Shown: piece by piece, positions 249-10,446 of the stretch | Layout of the letters: every line of letters starts with the position of its first letter | Position numbering within the stretch: the stretch's first letter is position 1 | Assembly (NCBI RefSeq): GCF_900156785.1 | Contig: NZ_FTOP01000020.1 | Location: 1 to 51,453 of the forward strand | Length of the DNA: 51,453 bases | DNA from: Belliella pelovolcani | GTDB taxonomy: Bacteria; Bacteroidota; Bacteroidia; Cytophagales; Cyclobacteriaceae | Direction of reading: 5' to 3' | Translations under genes and position numbers: made by a program | The notes under the pieces: generated by a model | Databases searched by the model: none | What the model was told of the DNA's origin: nothing | Seen by the model: the letters and a program-made list of their open reading frames with translations, nothing else

Positions 249-2087
249 TTATGTCACTTTTAATTCATACTTGTCTTCAAAAAATTCATTCAATACATTT
301 TGGTCTGTCTCTTCAATTAAAAATTTCCTTTCTTTTTCTGTCAGTTCACAAACTCCAAAATTCTTAATGTAATTTCCGTTCAATGAATAATATTCAGAAG
401 AGTAAGGCTTACTAGTCGTCTTGATGTAATACCAGAAGATGCTGGATTCCATTATTTTTTTTATAATTTCCATTTCTGTCTCTGAGCTACCAACTACCGC
501 AAGTCCGTTGTAAAAAAGCAAGTCGTCATCAGAATTAATGATGAAATTTGGTGTCCTGTCCGAATACTTTGGGAAGAACATTTTATTTTTTATCTTCTCT
601 AATGATTGCGTTCGGCCAAAAGCAAACCAGTTTTCATAATTCCCTTTTCCCTTATCTCTCTCTGCTAAAATCTTTCTTTTGTTCTGTAGATATTTATATG
701 CTTCAGGAAAACTTTCCTTCATTAGATTCTCATCAAGTAGCTTAGGTTTTTCTTGTTGGTCGTATGGGAAAATCACTTTCTCCTTAAGGTTATTTAGACT
801 AACCTCTCTGCTTAACTTATTCGAGTTTACAATATCCTTGCAAATGCCTTTTTCAATCTTGTAAAGACTTCCGTTTTGTAGATAGAAATAGTTCTCGTCT
901 TCGTAAACTGGTCTAAAAATATAAATATCATTCTTTAAGGTTGCTATACCGTGTCTCGTTTGATATAATTCACCAAATGGAATTCCTGTTGACTCAATTT
1001 TTGATATTGTTTTGTTGTCCTTTAAATTCCAACCTTTTTTAGAGTCAAGAATGTTGTATTTAATTTTCTTAAAAGAGTGTTTACCTGCCAGCTGTTTTGT
1101 TTCTGATTCTGCATATGAAATGAATTGCTGTTTCTTGTTTTCAATGAAACAAATACAAGTATAGGTGTTCTTTGATTTAAAAACCTGTTCAGAGCCAAAG
1201 TCTATAATTGAAATAGCAAGTTCTTTTCTTTGAAAATAATCTCTTAAAGCTCTTCCATTAAGACTTTTGAAAAATGAATTCATAGTGATGAATCCAAGAG
1301 TGCCATTTTCAGCCAAATTCTCAATTGCAATTTGGAAAAATGGAATGTATAAGTCTGAGTTACCTGATTTACAAACTTCCCAATTCTTTAATTTTTCTTT
1401 AGTTTCTTTGTCAAGATTTCTTGCACAAACATATGGAGGGTTTCCTAGTATAATGGAAAACCCATTGAAGTCAGCTATCGCAGTACTCCAATCAAAATCT
1501 AGGGAATCACCCTGAAATAAGTTGAACTGAAATTTTTCTATATCTTCTCCTGATTGCAAAGCCAATAAGGAGAGAAGCAACTTAGTTCGATTAACTGAAT
1601 ACTCTTGGATGTCTAAACCGAAGATGTGGTTTCTAAATATTTCTGAGTAAGTTTTGCCTGTTCTCTTTTTTAATTCAATAGATGCATTGAATAAAAAACC
1701 ACCACAGCCCATTGCGATATCAGATATTTTAATAGAATTATCTATGGCGTTGATTTTCTTAAACGCTTCTAAAACGATAAAAGACCTAATGTTTTGAGGT
1801 GTATAAATCGCACCGTTAATAATTCTGTCTGCTGGAGAAATAACAAATTCAAAAAGTTCAATGAGTTCTTCGAATCCAAATGCTTTTGTATCTGAATAGA
1901 TTGCTGATACAAATTCAAGAAGTGATGAGTGTTCCTCCTTACTTTTGCTACTAATGGAGTACAACTTAAGAAGTTTATTTTTCTTTAGCTCTAATTTGTT
2001 GATTTCAAGAAATGCAGAAATAATAAGCCTGTCCACATGTTCTGGAGTTGTAGAATATTGACTTAAATATTTGAAAGCGTTTTTCAT
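249..2087 (-). CDS. Eco57I/TaqI-like N6-adenine DNA methyltransferase with specificity domain
   Basis: The product (612 aa) should transfer a methyl group from S-adenosylmethionine to N6 of adenine in a specific DNA sequence. The SAM-binding motif I region (DIAMGCGGF, residues 123-131) and the catalytic NPPY motif (residues 216-219) are intact. The C-terminal third, beginning near a YQTRHGIATLKND stretch, looks like a target-recognition domain of the TaqI/Eco57I type. Classical type IIG enzymes carry an N-terminal PD-(D/E)XK nuclease. Here the first 90 residues are helical and show no such motif, so cleavage would have to come from elsewhere. Its start overlaps the HNH nuclease stop by four bases (ATGA), so the two are translationally coupled and this is the last gene of the operon. 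Known: the methylase family. Inferred: it protects self DNA, or serves as the specificity subunit for the HNH protein. Confidence 0.88.
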   Translation of the reverse strand: MKNAFKYLSQYSTTPEHVDRLIISAFLEINKLELKKNKLLKLYSISSKSKEEHSSLLEFVSAIYSDTKAFGFEELIELFEFVISPADRIINGAIYTPQNIRSFIVLEAFKKINAIDNSIKISDIAMGCGGFLFNASIELKKRTGKTYSEIFRNHIFGLDIQEYSVNRTKLLLSLLALQSGEDIEKFQFNLFQGDSLDFDWSTAIADFNGFSIILGNPPYVCARNLDKETKEKLKNWEVCKSGNSDLYIPFFQIAIENLAENGTLGFITMNSFFKSLNGRALRDYFQRKELAISIIDFGSEQVFKSKNTYTCICFIENKKQQFISYAESETKQLAGKHSFKKIKYNILDSKKGWNLKDNKTISKIESTGIPFGELYQTRHGIATLKNDIYIFRPVYEDENYFYLQNGSLYKIEKGICKDIVNSNKLSREVSLNNLKEKVIFPYDQQEKPKLLDENLMKESFPEAYKYLQNKRKILAERDKGKGNYENWFAFGRTQSLEKIKNKMFFPKYSDRTPNFIINSDDDLLFYNGLAVVGSSETEMEIIKKIMESSIFWYYIKTTSKPYSSEYYSLNGNYIKNFGVCELTEKERKFLIEETDQNVLNEFFEDKYELKVT

Positions 2088-2644
2088 TGAATGGCCCTGA
2101 GGTGTCTTTTGTAATTATTATACCGCATTGTAACTTCTACTAATAAGGATTTTGCAAGTTCGTTTTGTGAGTGTTCTATTAATTCTTGTAGGATAAACAT
2201 CCTCTGTTCAAGTTGGTCTAGCATCCAAATTATACTATGTCTTTTAAGATACAACTTCAATCTTATGTACATATATCTTGCCGCTTCAGATTCCGTTCTA
2301 GGGTAGATATTTCCTAATTCATCTCTGTAGAAATGTGTATTGTAATCTTCATTTACAGGGTCAAGGTATGAACCCACATCATCACTTTTAGCTCTATTAA
2401 CGAACGAGCAAGAATAAACTAGATTATCGTAATCTGTTTCCAAATCGGGAAACTTGGATTTGGGTTTAAAATGATCAATTTGAAAATTTGGTTTGCCTCC
2501 AAACCAAAAATCTAGACAATATGTATATCCACATCTATTTTCAAAGTCTTGAGCTAAGAAATCTTTGTACCTTCTATAGTCTGATAATTTTTTACCAGCA
2601 TAACTCCTTTTAGGCGGAACTTCTCTAAATGGTAATTCACTCAT
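2084..2644 (-). CDS. HNH endonuclease
   Basis: The 186-aa product has an HNH/beta-beta-alpha-metal nuclease core. Cysteines 38 and 43 (CGYTYC), Asp57-His58 in QIDHFKPKS, and YDNLVYSC (residues 72-79) followed by Asn83 form the expected series of metal and catalytic positions. The first cysteine pair is spaced CxxxxC rather than the usual CxxC. The C-terminal half is helical without a recognised domain. Similar small HNH proteins accompany ATPases in the Septu system and retron defence (family knowledge). Here the neighbour is instead a kinase/receiver pair plus a methylase. The gene overlaps the receiver gene upstream by eight bases and the methylase downstream by four, implying co-translation. 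The likely role is the DNA-cutting effector of the operon; that is inferred. Confidence 0.85.
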   Translation of the reverse strand: MSELPFREVPPKRSYAGKKLSDYRRYKDFLAQDFENRCGYTYCLDFWFGGKPNFQIDHFKPKSKFPDLETDYDNLVYSCSFVNRAKSDDVGSYLDPVNEDYNTHFYRDELGNIYPRTESEAARYMYIRLKLYLKRHSIIWMLDQLEQRMFILQELIEHSQNELAKSLLVEVTMRYNNYKRHLRAIQ

Positions 2645-3293
2645 CTTTCTTCCCTAATGATTTAGCCAGTTCATCAACCTTTTTTAGTAACTGAGAAAGT
2701 TCTGATGCTTCTTTATCATCCCTCAGAAGATTCGATATTCTACTTTCTTTATCTAATGCTTTTTCTATTTTAGAGTCTAATTCAGCCAATTCTTCTTTTT
2801 CCAAAGCATCAAGTTTTCTTTTTTTGCTCTCAGCAATTAATTCTAAAAGTCTTTTTTCGTCAGTTTCTAATTTGTGTTTGTATTTTTCAATTTGAAGTTT
2901 TATTCGTTCAATTAATCTTTGATTTTTTGTTATGTTTCCTGAGCCATCAGCTAAATATTTCTCACCTTTCTCGTATACAATATTTACATCATCACTTTTA
3001 CTTATAGCTTCGGGTTCATATGAAGTGAAAATAAAAACAGGAAACCCCTCTCTTTTAGATAAGAAAAGGTTGATGAGGTCTGTACCATCGTATTTAATAT
3101 CACTTACCTGTTCTGAAAATTCAAAATCAGATATTACTGCATCAACATGGTTTTCCAGAATAGTTAAACATGTTTCTTCTATTGAAGCTTTTGGAGTAAT
3201 TGGAATTACTTCAAAAGTGGGAAAACAAAATCGTTGAAATTTTCCGATTTCTTCATCTGATTCATCAATATATGCAATTTTGAATTTACTCAT
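2637..3293 (-). CDS. Receiver-domain protein with long C-terminal coiled coil
   Basis: Residues 1 to about 125 form a divergent CheY-like receiver. Asp10 and Asp13 sit in IDESD, the presumed phospho-acceptor is Asp56 in AVISDFEF, the switch Thr90-Ser91 is in FIFTSYE, and Lys109 is in VYEKGE. Residues from about 128 to 218 are a charged Lys/Glu-rich coiled coil. There is no DNA-binding or enzymatic output domain, so the output is probably a protein contact, for instance with the HNH nuclease or methylase (inference). It starts 11 bases after the kinase stop and overlaps the nuclease by eight bases. An unusual point is a response regulator embedded in a restriction-like operon. The identification as a receiver is fairly safe; its partner and output are unknown. 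Confidence 0.78.
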   Translation of the reverse strand: MSKFKIAYIDESDEEIGKFQRFCFPTFEVIPITPKASIEETCLTILENHVDAVISDFEFSEQVSDIKYDGTDLINLFLSKREGFPVFIFTSYEPEAISKSDDVNIVYEKGEKYLADGSGNITKNQRLIERIKLQIEKYKHKLETDEKRLLELIAESKKRKLDALEKEELAELDSKIEKALDKESRISNLLRDDKEASELSQLLKKVDELAKSLGKKDE

Positions 3294-3304
3294 CGATTTT
3301 CTAT

Positions 3305-5743
3305 TTAATAATGCGGCAAAAGAATTTTTATTTTAAAGTTTGGCCTAGCTTCTAATATTTCAACTTCTCCATTATAACCGTCAACATTAGATTTAATAAT
3401 CCACATTCCAAGTCCTGTACCTGTCTTTTCACCTGTTTTATCATCTCTTTTTGTAGTGAAAAAAGGTTGAAAAATTTTATTAGGTTCAATAATTTCATCT
3501 AAAAGACCTGGGCCTGTATCTTCGTAAACTGTACTTATTCCTAATTTTTCATTGAAATTAATCGAGAATCTTATTTTAATTTGTCGATCAGGGGAAGAAT
3601 CTTCCCGTTTAAATGCATCTACAGAATTTACTATAAGGTTATGAAATATTCCATCTAAATCGATTTCGTGACCTTTAAACCGAACATCCAAAAAATTGCC
3701 TTTGTCCACTATTAATTTAATATTTCGTCTTGATAGTAGAGGAGTCCAAATTCTTTTTAAACTTTCAACATAAGCCACTAAATTAATCACTTTGCTTGTG
3801 CGTTTATCTTTCCTGACAGATAAAATTGAAAAATCTAACCATGCTTTCAATCTGATATCTTGATTTTTCATATCCTCCAACATCTTGTAAGGATTAAAAA
3901 AATCAGGAAGTTGACTTACTTTAGCTTCGTCTACTACTTGATTAAGGACTTCCAAAAGCTCATATGTGCGAGGCAATATACTATCAGCATGATTTTTAAA
4001 TTCATGAGCAAAGGATGTCACGATCAAACCGGCGCTAGCCAATACTCTTAAAATCTTTTGCTCATCCTGCAACTCCTCAATATCTTCTTTATATGCTTCT
4101 ATTGCATTTATTAAAGTGTCTTTGTCAGCACTAGGATCAGATGAGTCAGAATCACTTTTTTTATCCTTTTTATTCTTAATTATCCTATCTGCCTCTTCTT
4201 TGGCTTTAGCTTTTTTATTATTCTCGTCATAGATCTTTTTGAGAGTCATCATTATTTGATTTCTGTCTTGCTCAAAAATTTCTATTACTGATTTCAATAT
4301 CTCTTTGAAAAGTGTAAATGTGTCGTTCTCTTGAAGTCCCTCTCGGCTTGACTTATCTTCAAAATTAATATTGTCAATTCTCGAAATATTTACAATACCA
4401 TATACTTGTTGTGGACGAACTCTATAACCTGGTCTTGTAACTGTTGGATTACTTAACGCTCTTTTACCTAAATCTAACCAGTCAAATGAGCTGCTTTTTG
4501 TTTCACCATATGGGCGTACTCTGAAATTGTCTCTAAAAATTTTGATTCCTCCAAATTTATCAAGCCAACTTGTTCTATTACTATAATTTACAGCCTTATA
4601 AGGATATTTGCCTACCTCTTCATCTTTTTCTTGGCCGCCACCTCTTTTCATAAAGTAAAATGAAAACGTAAATGCTCCAATTTTACTAAGGTTGTTGTTT
4701 TTATCAATTCCTTTGTATCCAGCTATCAGCGTTTCTAGCTTAGTTGTAATTTCAAACTCACCTTTCTCAAATGCACTAAATTGGTATTGCGGTTCATTGA
4801 GTTTGGATTTTTCAAAAAATCCAATTCTCCTTAAATCACCAAAGTTTAATTCGTTACGTGAAACTTTAATTGAAACCGATTGACTATCGTTTACGGTTGC
4901 AGTAACTTTATAATCATAATCGTCACATAACGTTGGTAGAACCTTACCATACTTATCAGGTTCTAAGGTGCTATAAAGAAATAATTGAAAAATATTCGTT
5001 TCTAAAGGTGGTACTAGAATTTCTAAATTGGAGTACAAAGATTGAGTAGCTCTTTCATCCCAAGTATCTTTAAGATTATCAATTGAAATTAAGGTTCCTT
5101 TTTCTTCCTTCCAATGGTCAATAATAGGTTCTTTTAATCCAGTGAAATTTTGCATTTCAATAATTTCACCCCAAAAATCACTATTACCAATTTGCAGAGT
5201 TGCTTTAATATCTGATATTACTGCTCCTGAGTTGTCAAACTGATTCCAATCAACATCCCAAACAAGGCTCTCAGAATCTAAAGTTTTGGTTATCATAACG
5301 CTAGATTTCCCGAGTCTATCCAATGCAAATCTACCAATCCCTTTAGCCCCTGTTTTTATTCTTGATTTCGTTTTAAAATTAACTTTCTTATCATCAGTTC
5401 CAATGGTCATCCATTGATTACGAATGATTTTTTCTGTCATTCCATCACCGTTGTCTAATATGCGAATACTGTCATTAACAGGGTCGATAATTATTATGCA
5501 AACAGAAGCATCTGCGTCATAACTGTTTTTTACTAACTCAATTATAGCTCCCTCAGCATTTGCGAAGTTTTCTTGTCCAATTAGTCGAGCCGTTCTTGCT
5601 GATACAGTAAATGGAATTTGAGTGATTTCTAATTCTTCGATTTCTTCATTAATGGATGCAATCAAAGCACTATCTGGCTGGACTTTTTGAGTTTCATCAG
5701 AGAGCCTTTTTTTTAGTTCTAATATTTTGGTTGCATTATCCAT
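3305..5743 (-). CDS. Double GHKL ATPase: HSP90/MORC-like ATPase fused to histidine kinase
   Basis: This 812-aa protein has two separate ATP-binding folds of the GHKL superfamily. The N-terminal one shows ELVKNSYDADA (residues 69-79), DNGDGM (97-102) and GAKGIGRFAL (132-141), as in HSP90/MORC/MutL-type ATPases, followed by a transducer-like middle region to about residue 500. A Lys/Glu-rich coiled coil (about 510-575) leads into a histidine-kinase core: H-box FAHEFKN with His580, N-box around 702-710 (NLIVNSVDA), G1 box DTGPGL (742-747), F-box FQPFFTT and G2 box GTGLGM (775-780). No transmembrane segment or signal peptide is visible, so it should be cytosolic. It heads the operon whose next gene is a receiver, the expected phosphotransfer partner. 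Family facts: GHKL ATPases clamp on ATP binding; histidine kinases autophosphorylate the H-box His. Inference: an intracellular sensor that controls the downstream nuclease. Confidence 0.85.
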   Translation of the reverse strand: MDNATKILELKKRLSDETQKVQPDSALIASINEEIEELEITQIPFTVSARTARLIGQENFANAEGAIIELVKNSYDADASVCIIIIDPVNDSIRILDNGDGMTEKIIRNQWMTIGTDDKKVNFKTKSRIKTGAKGIGRFALDRLGKSSVMITKTLDSESLVWDVDWNQFDNSGAVISDIKATLQIGNSDFWGEIIEMQNFTGLKEPIIDHWKEEKGTLISIDNLKDTWDERATQSLYSNLEILVPPLETNIFQLFLYSTLEPDKYGKVLPTLCDDYDYKVTATVNDSQSVSIKVSRNELNFGDLRRIGFFEKSKLNEPQYQFSAFEKGEFEITTKLETLIAGYKGIDKNNNLSKIGAFTFSFYFMKRGGGQEKDEEVGKYPYKAVNYSNRTSWLDKFGGIKIFRDNFRVRPYGETKSSSFDWLDLGKRALSNPTVTRPGYRVRPQQVYGIVNISRIDNINFEDKSSREGLQENDTFTLFKEILKSVIEIFEQDRNQIMMTLKKIYDENNKKAKAKEEADRIIKNKKDKKSDSDSSDPSADKDTLINAIEAYKEDIEELQDEQKILRVLASAGLIVTSFAHEFKNHADSILPRTYELLEVLNQVVDEAKVSQLPDFFNPYKMLEDMKNQDIRLKAWLDFSILSVRKDKRTSKVINLVAYVESLKRIWTPLLSRRNIKLIVDKGNFLDVRFKGHEIDLDGIFHNLIVNSVDAFKREDSSPDRQIKIRFSINFNEKLGISTVYEDTGPGLLDEIIEPNKIFQPFFTTKRDDKTGEKTGTGLGMWIIKSNVDGYNGEVEILEARPNFKIKILLPHY

Positions 5744-5780
5744 TTATCTATTTCTGTTCGTTGTTTATCAAGTCAGTAAT

Positions 5781-5957
5781 CTAAACACCAAGTAATTCAG
5801 CAATTGAAGCTAATGTATTCAAAGTAGGTTGTACGTCATTAGTGCACCACCTAGAAATTGTTGCTTCGTTTTTACCAAGTTGTTCGGCAAGCCATTTACT
5901 GCTCAGGTTCTCCTAAACTAGCACCACCTTGATTCTATTTATTGCTTTTAGGCTCAT
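5781..5957 (-). pseudogene. XRE-family HTH regulator interrupted by an in-frame TAG
   Basis: Reading from ATG at 5957 gives 14 residues (MSLKAINRIKVVLV), then TAG at 5915-5913. The same frame continues for 43 more residues with a textbook HTH_3/XRE fold (KWLAEQLGKNEATISRW, then PTLNTLASIAELLGV) and ends at TAG, 5783-5781. The frame is unbroken except for codon 15. Related small regulators normally have Glu or Lys there, and GAG to TAG is a single change. There is no ATG, GTG or TTG suitably placed after the stop, so a functional HTH protein is unlikely unless the stop is read through. The gene sits 37 bases upstream of the kinase gene on the same strand and looks like the operon's own controller. 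A sequencing error is an alternative explanation. Confidence 0.8.
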
Positions 5958-7950: not shown

Positions 7951-8328
7951 TTAAAGTCCATTAACAAAATCTGCAATGTTTGCCCAAGTCCAAGTTACTT
8001 TTTTTATACCATTCAATTCGTTAGGAGAATCAAATATGTTACAACCTGTCATATAGACTCCTAATATTGGGATACCTTCTTCTTTTGCACAATTGATTTC
8101 CCAAATTGCTCCATCAGCATTTTTTAAGTTTTTTGAAATTAGAACTACGACACCATCACAACCCTTTATTTTAGTTCTGCATTTAGTTTTCCATTCACTA
8201 CTCCAAGGTTCCTTGACTGACATATCCACTAATTCATAAGGAACTTTGTCGTGTCTTGCTTGACCTACAAATAGGTCTCTAATTCTTGCATCTTCAATTG
8301 CAAAGCTTGTAAAAATTCTTTTTGCCAT
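7951..8328 (-). CDS. Stand-alone TIR-like (DUF1863/ThsB-type) domain protein
   Basis: The 125-aa protein is one compact domain of the MTH538/DUF1863 TIR-like fold. It begins AKRIFTSFAIEDARIRDLF, continues with YELVDMSVKEPWSSEW, then CDGVVVLISKNL and AIWEINCAKEEGIPILGVY. Glu77 in WEI is at the place of the conserved TIR glutamate. ThsB proteins of Thoeris, which make cyclic ADP-ribose-type signals on infection, have this fold (family knowledge). No ThsA-like SIR2 or macro-domain effector lies nearby. It sits 7 bases after the TIR-membrane fusion gene and 12 before the small membrane protein. A signalling or NAD-consuming role with the fusion protein as effector is plausible but inferred. Confidence 0.8.
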   Translation of the reverse strand: MAKRIFTSFAIEDARIRDLFVGQARHDKVPYELVDMSVKEPWSSEWKTKCRTKIKGCDGVVVLISKNLKNADGAIWEINCAKEEGIPILGVYMTGCNIFDSPNELNGIKKVTWTWANIADFVNGL

Positions 8329-8335
8329 TTTATTT

Positions 8336-9193
8336 TTATTTTAGATGATTGCACATACATTCTGCTAGATTGAAATTTTGAAATAATTCATAGAGCAAAT
8401 AAATAATTTCAATAATTAGGGTTAGATAAATGAATAGTCTGAAACGTGTTACTATTTTAGTTTCTGTTTTTGTATTTGGTTCATAATCTATTTCCTGAGT
8501 TAAGATTCGCCATTCTTCTTCGAACATATTAGTTCGTAACTCTTTTTCAATTCTGTCAATGACTTTAAATTTCCCTGTATTTAATTTTCCGTATGATTTT
8601 ACTAATTTTTCCCAAAAATAGGTCGTCAGTAATGCGAGGGCTGTTAGAATTGTCATTGCGACAACACTCAAAGGAATAAAACTGTATGTCTTGCCTAATA
8701 CAAAGGCTACTGATAATATTGATGATGTTATTGTGAAAAACAAGTTATTTACTTTCATCCTTGCATCAGTCACCTTCTCTGTTGAGCTTACCATTATTTT
8801 GTATTGCTCAATTTTAAGCAGTCGGTCACTAACAAAAATTTTGTCGAGATACTTCAATGTCTGATTAGAGTTGTCAAATACTTGAAAACCTTGGCAAAAA
8901 AGAATAGATTCTTCAGAAGCGTTTTTGAGTTTAATACCAACTATTTGTTTATTCAGGCTCTTTGCTTTTGCATATTCCCAAATTATCTGTTCGCTTTTAA
9001 ATGTTTCTTCTCCGATTAAGAATGCTACAAAATCACTTTCTTTTAGCTTAGCTTCAACAATTTCTTTCCAATTGTCAACGTGTTCAGTCTGTTTTAATAT
9101 TGCAACAGTATTTTCTGAATCTTTCAATAAAGCAGAAATGATGTCGTCTCCTTCATCTTTGTCAGTACTTCTGTAACAAATAAATATTTTCAT
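8336..9193 (-). CDS. TIR-like domain fused to RipA/SLATT-like membrane protein
   Basis: Residues 1 to about 100 are a TIR-like domain (MKIFICYRSTDKDEGDD; FVAFLIGEETF; IIWEYAKAKSLNKQIVGIKL, with Glu73 in WEY). From about residue 130 the protein resembles the RipA-family octameric membrane proteins: EQYKIMV, two adjacent membrane helices (about 150-170 and 172-192), the motif NTGKFKVIDRIEKEL, EEEWR, and a third membrane helix near 252-272. Such proteins and the related SLATT family are thought to form pores and often pair with nucleotide-signal or NAD-consuming modules (family knowledge). Inference: the TIR part senses or responds to infection and the membrane part kills the cell. It is the first gene of a three-gene module. 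The RipA assignment is by remembered motifs, not by a search. Confidence 0.75.
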   Translation of the reverse strand: MKIFICYRSTDKDEGDDIISALLKDSENTVAILKQTEHVDNWKEIVEAKLKESDFVAFLIGEETFKSEQIIWEYAKAKSLNKQIVGIKLKNASEESILFCQGFQVFDNSNQTLKYLDKIFVSDRLLKIEQYKIMVSSTEKVTDARMKVNNLFFTITSSILSVAFVLGKTYSFIPLSVVAMTILTALALLTTYFWEKLVKSYGKLNTGKFKVIDRIEKELRTNMFEEEWRILTQEIDYEPNTKTETKIVTRFRLFIYLTLIIEIIYLLYELFQNFNLAECMCNHLK

Positions 9194-9227
9194 TTCTGTC
9201 TTATTGTTGTTGGTCGTCTTTTAAATT

Positions 9228-9361
9228 GCCCTATAACGGTCAAGTATAAGCGTAGTGCGGGATTTCAAAGCGATTCACTGTCTGCCCGAGTAAAGTTTAT
9301 TTGGAAAAAAAATGCTTGATTTTAACTTTTCAGCTCGCATTATGCTTATACAATGTTGTGC
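9228..9361 (-). other. attC-like recombination site between two defence modules
   Basis: On the minus strand the site runs from GCACAAC (9361-9355) to GTTATAGGGC (9237-9228). Inside it, GTATAAGCATAATGCGAG and the complement of the other arm, GTATAAGCGTAGTGCGGG, match at 15 of 18 positions, giving an imperfect long palindrome around an unpaired centre. This is the layout of integron attC sites (outer cores, inner L boxes, variable middle). The outer cores deviate from the strict GTTRRRY consensus, and no integrase is in the window. Confidence 0.55.
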
Positions 9362-9369
9362 AAAGTTTT

Positions 9370-10446
9370 TCATAGTTTGAATGGTTTAATTTCTTTTTGT
9401 TGAATTTCTTCAATCTGTTCAGAGACATCTGTAAAATGAATTGTGTTTTTACTTTGAAGTTTGCTGTGTAAATTGACAAATTCAATATTTTGTTCTAATT
9501 TAAGGTTTAATATTTCTCTTCCTGCAATTCCTTTAGGTGTAATTTCATCTCTTTCGCTTTTTCCAAAATGAGCAAAAATGAATTTATTCTGATTAGTCTC
9601 AATTTCATCTAAAATCATAGAAAACTCAAAACCAACACCACCTTTCATTGAGTCTGCTTTTTGCTTATAAGTTGGAGAGAGTATTGTTATTATTTTCTGA
9701 TTAGACTCAAAGGCTTCAATCATCATTTTTTTGAAATGAATTGCAGTTTCTTCTTGAGTTTTTAATCGATCCATTGATGCGTTATAGCCTTTTTTTCTTA
9801 AGAAGTCTACAAATGAAATAACAGTATCATTGTGTTGGTCATTCTCCCAAGCATACGTTACAAATACATCAATTCTCTCCCTTACTACTTTAGTATTAGA
9901 TTCTTTTTGCACATTTTTTAGTGATGTTGGTTTTGCTGATTTTTGTAATCTTCTTAGGTGTTGAATCAGTTTTTCCCGTACAACTGTTAAAATATTTTGA
10001 AGGGTACTTTTCCCGAATTGATGGAAAGCTTCAAGTACGGTTATATTTGGATTATTGTAGTTAACAATTTGGTTAAGTGAACTCACGAGTTCTTGTGGAA
10101 GCTGTCTTTTTACTATATCTTTAGTAATGTTTTTTAGGTTGTCTTGAATAAAGCCAATACCATCAGGTATGTGAATGATATTAAAATCAAAACCCACTTT
10201 TTCTGACACAGTTGATAAATCAATTGGAGTATTGTTTTGGATACCATATGCAGTTTGAATTGTACATATAATTTCACCCTTAATTTTCCTGTAAGAAGGT
10301 ATTTCTGAATTGTATCCATTCAATTCGTTATTAATAAATTGTTCGAGTTCTGTATCATTATAGGACTCTGCATATTCATTAGCTTCAAGGAGTAATAGGT
10401 TTAATTCTCCTTCACCTTTTAACAGTCTTTGTATGAGTTCTTTCAT
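9370..10446 (-). CDS. AbiTii-SEFIR fusion protein
   Basis: The 358-aa protein begins with an AbiTii-like domain (ELIQRLLKGEGELNLLLLEA, then INNELNGYNSEIPSYRKIKG), about residues 1-105. A helical linker follows. A SEFIR domain from about 192 to 320 starts RIDVFVTYAWENDQHNDTV, then LRKKGYNASMDR, and ends with the conserved ADSMKGGVGFEFSMI block. SEFIR domains are TIR relatives and single-gene SEFIR proteins act in abortive anti-phage defence; AbiTii is named after an abortive-infection protein (both family knowledge). It lies between GTTGTGC (minus strand, 10466-10460), only 14 bases before its ATG, and GCACAAC just after its stop, so it forms a one-gene cassette-like unit. Inference: AbiTii is the trigger part and SEFIR the toxic part. 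Confidence 0.8.
   Translation of the reverse strand: MKELIQRLLKGEGELNLLLLEANEYAESYNDTELEQFINNELNGYNSEIPSYRKIKGEIICTIQTAYGIQNNTPIDLSTVSEKVGFDFNIIHIPDGIGFIQDNLKNITKDIVKRQLPQELVSSLNQIVNYNNPNITVLEAFHQFGKSTLQNILTVVREKLIQHLRRLQKSAKPTSLKNVQKESNTKVVRERIDVFVTYAWENDQHNDTVISFVDFLRKKGYNASMDRLKTQEETAIHFKKMMIEAFESNQKIITILSPTYKQKADSMKGGVGFEFSMILDEIETNQNKFIFAHFGKSERDEITPKGIAGREILNLKLEQNIEFVNLHSKLQSKNTIHFTDVSEQIEEIQQKEIKPFKL

Follow-up and report, generated by a model that had tools for sequence, protein, structure and literature searches.

We describe a cassette of four genes in Belliella pelovolcani, a member of the Bacteroidota, that brings together a kinase fused to a GHKL ATPase of the MORC/Hsp90 type, a receiver protein, a PtuB-like HNH nuclease and an N6-adenine DNA methylase. 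The cassette lies near one end of contig NZ_FTOP01000020.1 (assembly GCF_900156785.1), of which we analysed positions 1 to 51,453; this whole stretch is hereafter called the window. The cassette is real, widely spread and apparently unnamed, and its gene content suggests a variant of a theme in which kinase-receiver pairs are linked to restriction-modification (R-M) genes. We predict that it probably serves in self/non-self DNA defence, with a cutter switched by phosphate signalling. Our reading, to which we lean with modest confidence, is that this is an R-M cassette whose nuclease would be non-autonomous and controlled by a dedicated kinase-receiver pair.

The four genes are intact open reading frames (ORFs) on the minus strand, transcribed in the order kinase, receiver, HNH nuclease, methylase (Table 1). 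They are tightly packed: 11 bases separate the kinase and receiver genes, the receiver and HNH genes overlap by 8 bases, and the HNH and methylase genes by 4. An earlier note on this DNA, made from the sequence alone, had described the same arrangement with intact motifs in every gene and had proposed a search for the linkage in other genomes. The arrangement is borne out, the motifs hold across the homologues described below, and the linkage is conserved elsewhere. A scan of GTDB genomes returned 281 relatives, and we examined the best-scoring 80. A first pass covered 83 loci (these 80, the window, and two duplicates of L033 and L062, namely L022 and L023) and found 79 kinases of full length; at 71 of these, all four genes are present. 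The methylase is last in 47 of the 71 and was recorded upstream in 24; one of the 24, L086, carries methylases on either side. Six-frame profile searches then recovered the pieces that had seemed to be missing, namely the receiver or HNH gene in L048, L061, L083 and L094, which led us to reject the notion of incomplete loci. At L053 the start of a methylase is found at the contig end, and L076 and L089 have all partners beside split kinases. With the contig-end loci L031, L080, L101 and L103 left aside, the kinase, receiver and HNH genes stand side by side with a methylase gene, on one strand, in 76 of 76 testable loci among the best 80 relatives. The median gaps between genes are 3, -4, -4 and 9 bases.

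Table 1. Features of the cassette and its neighbours in the window.
Feature	Positions	Strand	Evidence
MORC/Hsp90-type GHKL ATPase-histidine kinase fusion, 812 amino acids	3305..5743	-	Pfam, AlphaFold, Foldseek, conserved residues
Receiver with long helical hairpin, 218 amino acids	2637..3293	-	AlphaFold, Foldseek, PDB profile match, conserved residues
HNH nuclease, PtuB-like, 186 amino acids	2084..2644	-	Pfam, PADLOC, PtuB profile match, conserved residues
N6-adenine DNA methylase, Eco57I type, 612 amino acids	249..2087	-	Pfam, PADLOC, NPP motif
Small XRE-type helix-turn-helix reading frame, controller-like	5749..5957	-	Two in-frame TAG codons
ThsB-like TIR, TIR with 8xMP membrane part, AbiTii-SEFIR fusion (consecutive)	7951-10446	-	Pfam and PADLOC

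The cassette is spread widely yet is rare. Comparisons across cassettes were made on 69 rows, these being the loci in which the first pass found all four genes, minus the two duplicates. The rows come from Bacteroidota, Bacillota, Pseudomonadota, Melainabacteria, Campylobacterota, Thermodesulfobacteriota, Planctomycetota, Chloroflexota, Auribacterota and a Methanolobus archaeon; the testable loci together span at least ten phyla. Among 395 evenly sampled Bacteroidota genomes, searched for the kinase at E<=1e-40 and the methylase at E<=1e-60, five have the kinase, the window's own genome being one of them, and all five carry the whole cassette. Four plasmid records match the kinase, and the three that were inspected (Bacteroides finegoldii, Salipiger profundus and Ensifer adhaerens) each carry the whole cassette. 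The annotations of the first two name no system: they read 'sensor histidine kinase', 'hypothetical protein' and 'N-6 DNA methylase', with the nuclease under an HNH endonuclease name. Phage records gave only two weak, partial kinase matches. As a separate observation, the kinase frame is split over two ORFs in L076 and L089, as is the methylase of L076, and the remaining genes are retained.

The kinase has two ATP-binding ends. Pfam places HATPase_c_3 at residues 63-177 (E 3.7e-19) and HATPase_c at 692-809 (E 1.2e-15), and the protein can be divided into a GHKL ATPase with transducer (about residues 40-500), a coiled linker, a HisKA-like dimerization helix bearing His580, and the C-terminal HATPase_c domain. 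The AlphaFold model (mean predicted local distance difference test score, pLDDT, 82) matched histidine kinases (ZraS, E 4.5e-12), MORC2, MORC3 and Hsp90 in Foldseek; a structure of MORC2 with DNA is among the MORC structures matched by the N-terminal half. A profile search also returned histidine kinases and MORC3. The NCBIfam model for BbrUII/HgiDII matches residues 47-235 (E 1.6e-13), and the sole PADLOC match of the window kinase is to a type II restriction enzyme model. His580, Asn702, Asn706 and the G-box glycines 775, 777 and 779 are present in all 69 aligned kinases. The N-terminal ATP site (Glu69, Asn73, Asp97, Gly99 and Gly101) is kept in 67 of 69 rows; in the remaining two the alignment has a gap at this place.

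The receiver is recognized most clearly through its relatives and its fold. Pfam run on the window receiver alone gave no receiver match, and Response_reg was matched by 46 of 73 aligned receivers at E<=0.1 (with the truncated L031 row excluded from the alignment). The AlphaFold model (mean pLDDT 84.7) has a receiver fold followed by a long helical hairpin tail; in Foldseek it found PorX (E 2.8e-5) and other receivers, and the profile of the alignment matched receivers in the PDB (E 6.7e-8). The assignment as a receiver with a coil, made in the earlier note, is thus upheld. Six of the 73 receivers also match the PADLOC candidate family PDC-M60B (E<=0.001). The phospho-acceptor Asp56 is invariant (69/69), as is a Thr or Ser at position 90 (69/69). 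The cassette has the hallmark of a two-component system, a phospho-His (His580) and a phospho-Asp (Asp56) kept in cognate partners in all 69 rows.

Might these two proteins act without phosphotransfer? We consider it unlikely that the kinase and receiver form a structural, ATP-driven clamp or adaptor, akin to MutL or MORC with a nuclease, in which the kinase chemistry is incidental or serves assembly only and restriction proceeds as a plain type II-like reaction. The N-terminal half of the kinase does match MORC/Hsp90 clamps, and the portion of PMC2292703 available to us links MORC and paraMORC families to nucleases and R-M genes. However, a mere adaptor would have no need of His580, the C-terminal N-box asparagines, the G-box glycines and receiver Asp56, which are invariant.

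The HNH protein is the obvious candidate for the cutter. It matches Pfam HNH (E 3.7e-5) and PADLOC PtuB (E 3.7e-14), and its profile matches PtuB structures in the PDB (E 1.2e-5). His58, Asn74 and Asn83 are present in 69 of 69 rows. The zinc-type cysteines 41 and 82 are kept in 59 rows and both are missing in 10, the window among them. The likeness to PtuB, the effector of retron and Septu systems, raises the prospect of a toxin-like abortive system, in which the HNH protein would attack host DNA or RNA once the kinase senses infection and the methylase would protect or set the trigger level. The TIR and SEFIR genes near the window copy fit such a role. We nevertheless hold it to be improbable, as the methylase is found at every testable locus, which favours a DNA target and self-marking.

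The methylase belongs to the Eco57I type (Pfam Eco57I, E 2e-31; N6_Mtase, E 1.2e-19; PADLOC MTase_II, E 7.8e-103). Its NPPY motif lies at residues 216-219; NPP is present in 69 of 69 rows and Tyr219 in 68. The C-terminal part should hold the target-recognition region.

Comparison of the cassettes shows that the kinase, receiver and HNH nuclease form a core that co-evolves and that the methylase re-assorts as a separate module; pairwise identities, DNA alignment and trees agree on this. Across the 69 cassettes, pairwise identities of the three core proteins track one another (Spearman 0.66-0.77), and those of the methylase follow the core proteins more weakly (0.23-0.35). Of the 134 pairs whose kinase identity reaches 0.55 or more, none falls below 0.30 in receiver or HNH identity, and 32 do so in methylase identity. 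Conversely, the methylase identity is 0.55 or higher in 138 pairs, and in 62 of these the kinase identity is below 0.42. One locus, L084, needs care: its methylase is taken as a 481-amino-acid ORF in the identity figures, which hardly change in the main if a 1222-amino-acid neighbour is used; the methylase alignment leaves L084 out; and the methylase tree and the analysis of core co-variation carry the 1222-amino-acid neighbour, a wrong row.

The exchange can be seen directly in a comparison with Belliella aquatica (L062). The methylases of the window and L062 are 93% identical, and the kinases, receivers and HNH proteins 36%, 23% and 30%. At the DNA level, the two are 91% identical from window position 2086, inside the methylase start codon, to position 98. 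Similarity returns, at 77%, in the region of the XRE gene and promoter (6041-5821); between this region and the methylase start, no more than two short pieces can be aligned. The trees (FastTree, local supports) agree: the core tree places the window with Algoriphagus ratkowskyi (L026; support 97) and L062 in a separate clade of 12 rows (99), and the methylase tree unites the window, L062 and L026 in one clade (99). A search for a core region co-varying with the methylase gave small partial correlations only (highest 0.14; HNH tail -0.13).

This pattern also bears on the possibility that an ordinary two-component system responds to stress by controlling the transcription of an equally ordinary type II R-M pair next to it. 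The kinase-receiver architecture is what such a regulator would have, and the paper on the HEF_HK kinases (discussed below) suggests that signalling controls R-M systems, directly or indirectly (PMC8011034). Three observations make this very unlikely in our view: the receiver model was not seen to contain a DNA-binding output domain, the kinase, receiver and HNH nuclease co-evolve tightly and the methylase moves separately, and a separate XRE controller-like ORF is present in 13 of 77 loci, directly upstream of the cassette. Given a receiver model without a DNA-binding domain, output is likely to proceed through protein contact, most likely with the HNH nuclease or a kinase-HNH complex.

The preferred reading, an R-M cassette with a phosphate-controlled nuclease, can be set out as a series of steps. 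The methylase would mark its target sites in the host DNA. The MORC-like ATPase half of the kinase would load on, or clamp, DNA and probably acts as the sensor of DNA that is unmarked or foreign; the MORC and MutL clamps treated in the portion of PMC2292703 available make it, by analogy, the natural candidate for this role. The coiled linker would relay the state of the ATPase to the histidine kinase at the C terminus, and this in turn would phosphorylate His580 and then Asp56 of the receiver. The helical tail of the receiver would then license (or, less likely, restrain) the HNH nuclease, and the licensed nuclease would cut DNA and so might protect the cell from phage. DNA marking seems to be part of the cassette's job, since a methylase is always present, even one of another class: at L038, the slot after the kinase, receiver and HNH genes (9271-10107) holds a DPPY-class methylase and not one of the Eco57I type, which implies that a methylase as such may be needed.

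Several observations weigh against parts of this scheme. One difficulty is how the nuclease would read the methylase's site: near-identical methylases occur with cores only 23-36% identical, and, the other way round, methylases 17% identical go with cores whose kinases are 66% and HNH proteins 62% identical. Some relatives of the methylase stand apart from the core, one (L137) next to a conventional type II nuclease gene. Re-assortment favours a site specificity seated only in the methylase; L137 speaks the other way, its nuclease presumably reading its own site. The phosphorelay raises questions too. The lysine at receiver position 109 is kept in no more than 51 of 69 rows. The HisKA phosphatase motif (E/DxxN/T following the His) is found in just 12 of 69, among them the window; this scarcity is a weak hint that most members work as one-way switches. 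Finally, the nearness to defence genes that the earlier note proposed looking for holds for the window copy, which has the TIR, TIR-8xMP and AbiTii-SEFIR genes close by, and the comparison of flanks across loci is not decisive. Proteins within 2.5 kb of cassettes (110 of 289) matched 109 PADLOC families at E<=1e-10, against 27 matched by 110 of 165 proteins more than 6 kb away, in a count of families, not of proteins, that is skewed by a single retron reverse transcriptase matching 44 families.

The methylase relatives outside the cassette deserve a word of their own. The idea of a methylase that works only with this core was rejected, as three of the five methylase matches in the 395 Bacteroidota genomes fall in genomes without a listed kinase match. 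At L135, a relative of the window methylase lies beside genes for a type IIG enzyme, SIR2 and HerA, and at L136 another lies beside PD-Lambda-5-like genes.

A bolder version of the preferred reading is that the cassette represents a class of phosphorelay-gated restriction, in which a MORC clamp senses, a receiver licenses a non-specific HNH nuclease, and specificity comes only from an exchangeable methylase. We put this forward tentatively, as a possibility more doubtful than the reading it extends. If it were true, a swap of methylase would retarget the whole machine, and the C5/HEF_HK and N6/PtuB-like versions would be two branches of one class. Should the preferred reading itself prove right, the cassette would be a restriction system whose cutter obeys a phosphorelay, and it would show how bacteria can separate 'mark' from 'cut' and put off the cutting of self-DNA when the system enters a new cell. 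The bacterial MORC-like kinases, noted beside R-M genes in 2008 and 2021 from sequence, would then gain a function as well. The four-gene unit is compact, and it is found on plasmids and in culturable species.

How does the cassette relate to systems already described? The closest are the HEF_HK elements. Bellieny-Rabelo and colleagues (2021, PMC8011034) described a kinase-receiver pair, HEF_HK (PF19191) and Response_reg_2 (PF19192), beside type II R-M genes. These elements resemble the cassette in having a double-HATPase kinase with an N-terminal HATPase_c_3 domain, an adjacent receiver, a methylase and often an HNH or other nuclease. At L115, an HEF_HK locus with the order C5 methylase, HEF_HK kinase, Response_reg_2 and HNH_2, the four-slot plan is the same, with another methylase, HNH and receiver family in the slots. 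By contrast, the window cassette has an N6-adenine Eco57I methylase rather than a C5 enzyme and a PtuB-like HNH (PF01844) rather than HNH_2, and its receiver has 218 amino acids compared with 528-570 in four HEF_HK loci. PF19191 had no match in the window kinase at E<=0.1 and none in its own genome at E<=0.001, and it was not among the best 25 of 51 Pfam families for 58 kinase homologues (the kinase alignment was kept to 58 of 77 kinases for size). Similarly, PF19192 had no match in the window receiver at E<=0.1 and was not among the best 25 of 64 families for the 73 receivers. HEF_HK itself gave eight matches in 198 Bacteroidota genomes, four of them over the cut-off. With neither Pfam model matched, we rejected HEF_HK membership and treat the cassette as a sister variant. 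Two other kinase relatives, at L120 and L121, come with a C5 methylase and, as neighbour, a small protein resembling a receiver (Response_reg E 1.4e-4, under the cut-off, and 9e-8); both loci are perhaps further variants of the same plan.

The MORC connection was made earlier. In the portion of their paper available to us, Iyer and colleagues (2008, PMC2292703) place MORC-like ATPases in R-M operons and state that one family may co-occur with HNH. The paraMORC1 family, as described in that portion, resembles the window kinase in its GHKL and S5-like domains and its C-terminal extension, and it is reported to occur together with methylases and HNH nucleases. The description there includes no kinase extension and no receiver partner.

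Type II R-M systems share with the cassette a methylase and a separate nuclease encoded together, as found in 76 of 76 testable loci. Assignment to type IIG was rejected because methylase and nuclease are separate ORFs; the PADLOC IIG models align by their C-terminal parts only (for example, model positions 519-935 of 1011). Septu likewise pairs an ATPase with a PtuB-like HNH protein. Its ATPase, PtuA, is of the ABC/AAA type, whereas the ATPase here is GHKL, and the receiver and methylase are extra; Septu membership was rejected on the ground of the ATPase. Detocs has a histidine kinase and a receiver, and its effector is an ATP-degrading nucleosidase. Here, in contrast, the enzymes in the operon are an HNH nuclease and a methylase, and Pfam found no nucleotide-degrading domain in the operon. 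PADLOC gave no match named Detocs for the window kinase or the 73 receivers, the presence of Detocs models in PADLOC 2.0 being unchecked. HgiDII/BbrUII enzymes and GHKL Shedu resemble the cassette in tying an N-terminal GHKL ATPase to a nuclease; in HgiDII the nuclease is in the same chain. The same is true of VcSduA, a GHKL Shedu, for which the portion of PMC12137116 available mentions neither a histidine-kinase part nor a receiver.

The earlier note knew of no described system with all four parts. This stands for the four-gene set, which is unnamed in the titles and abstract openings of the open-licence literature searched; the general theme, though, was already in print (PMC8011034 and, in the portion available, PMC2292703). 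A figure legend in PMC13092281 (2026), from the part of that paper available, has HATPase and REC among the domains of predicted, unvalidated systems, so overlap is possible. The available part of PMC12839542 holds nothing bearing on the cassette.

The window copy sits in a low-GC, defence-like stretch. The GC content of the first 1-11 kb is 31-35%, bar a single 1-kb step at 39%, and beyond it is 36-47%. The small XRE-type frame directly upstream of the kinase, interrupted in the window, has a counterpart in the same place in A. ratkowskyi, where it is an intact ORF of 69 amino acids.

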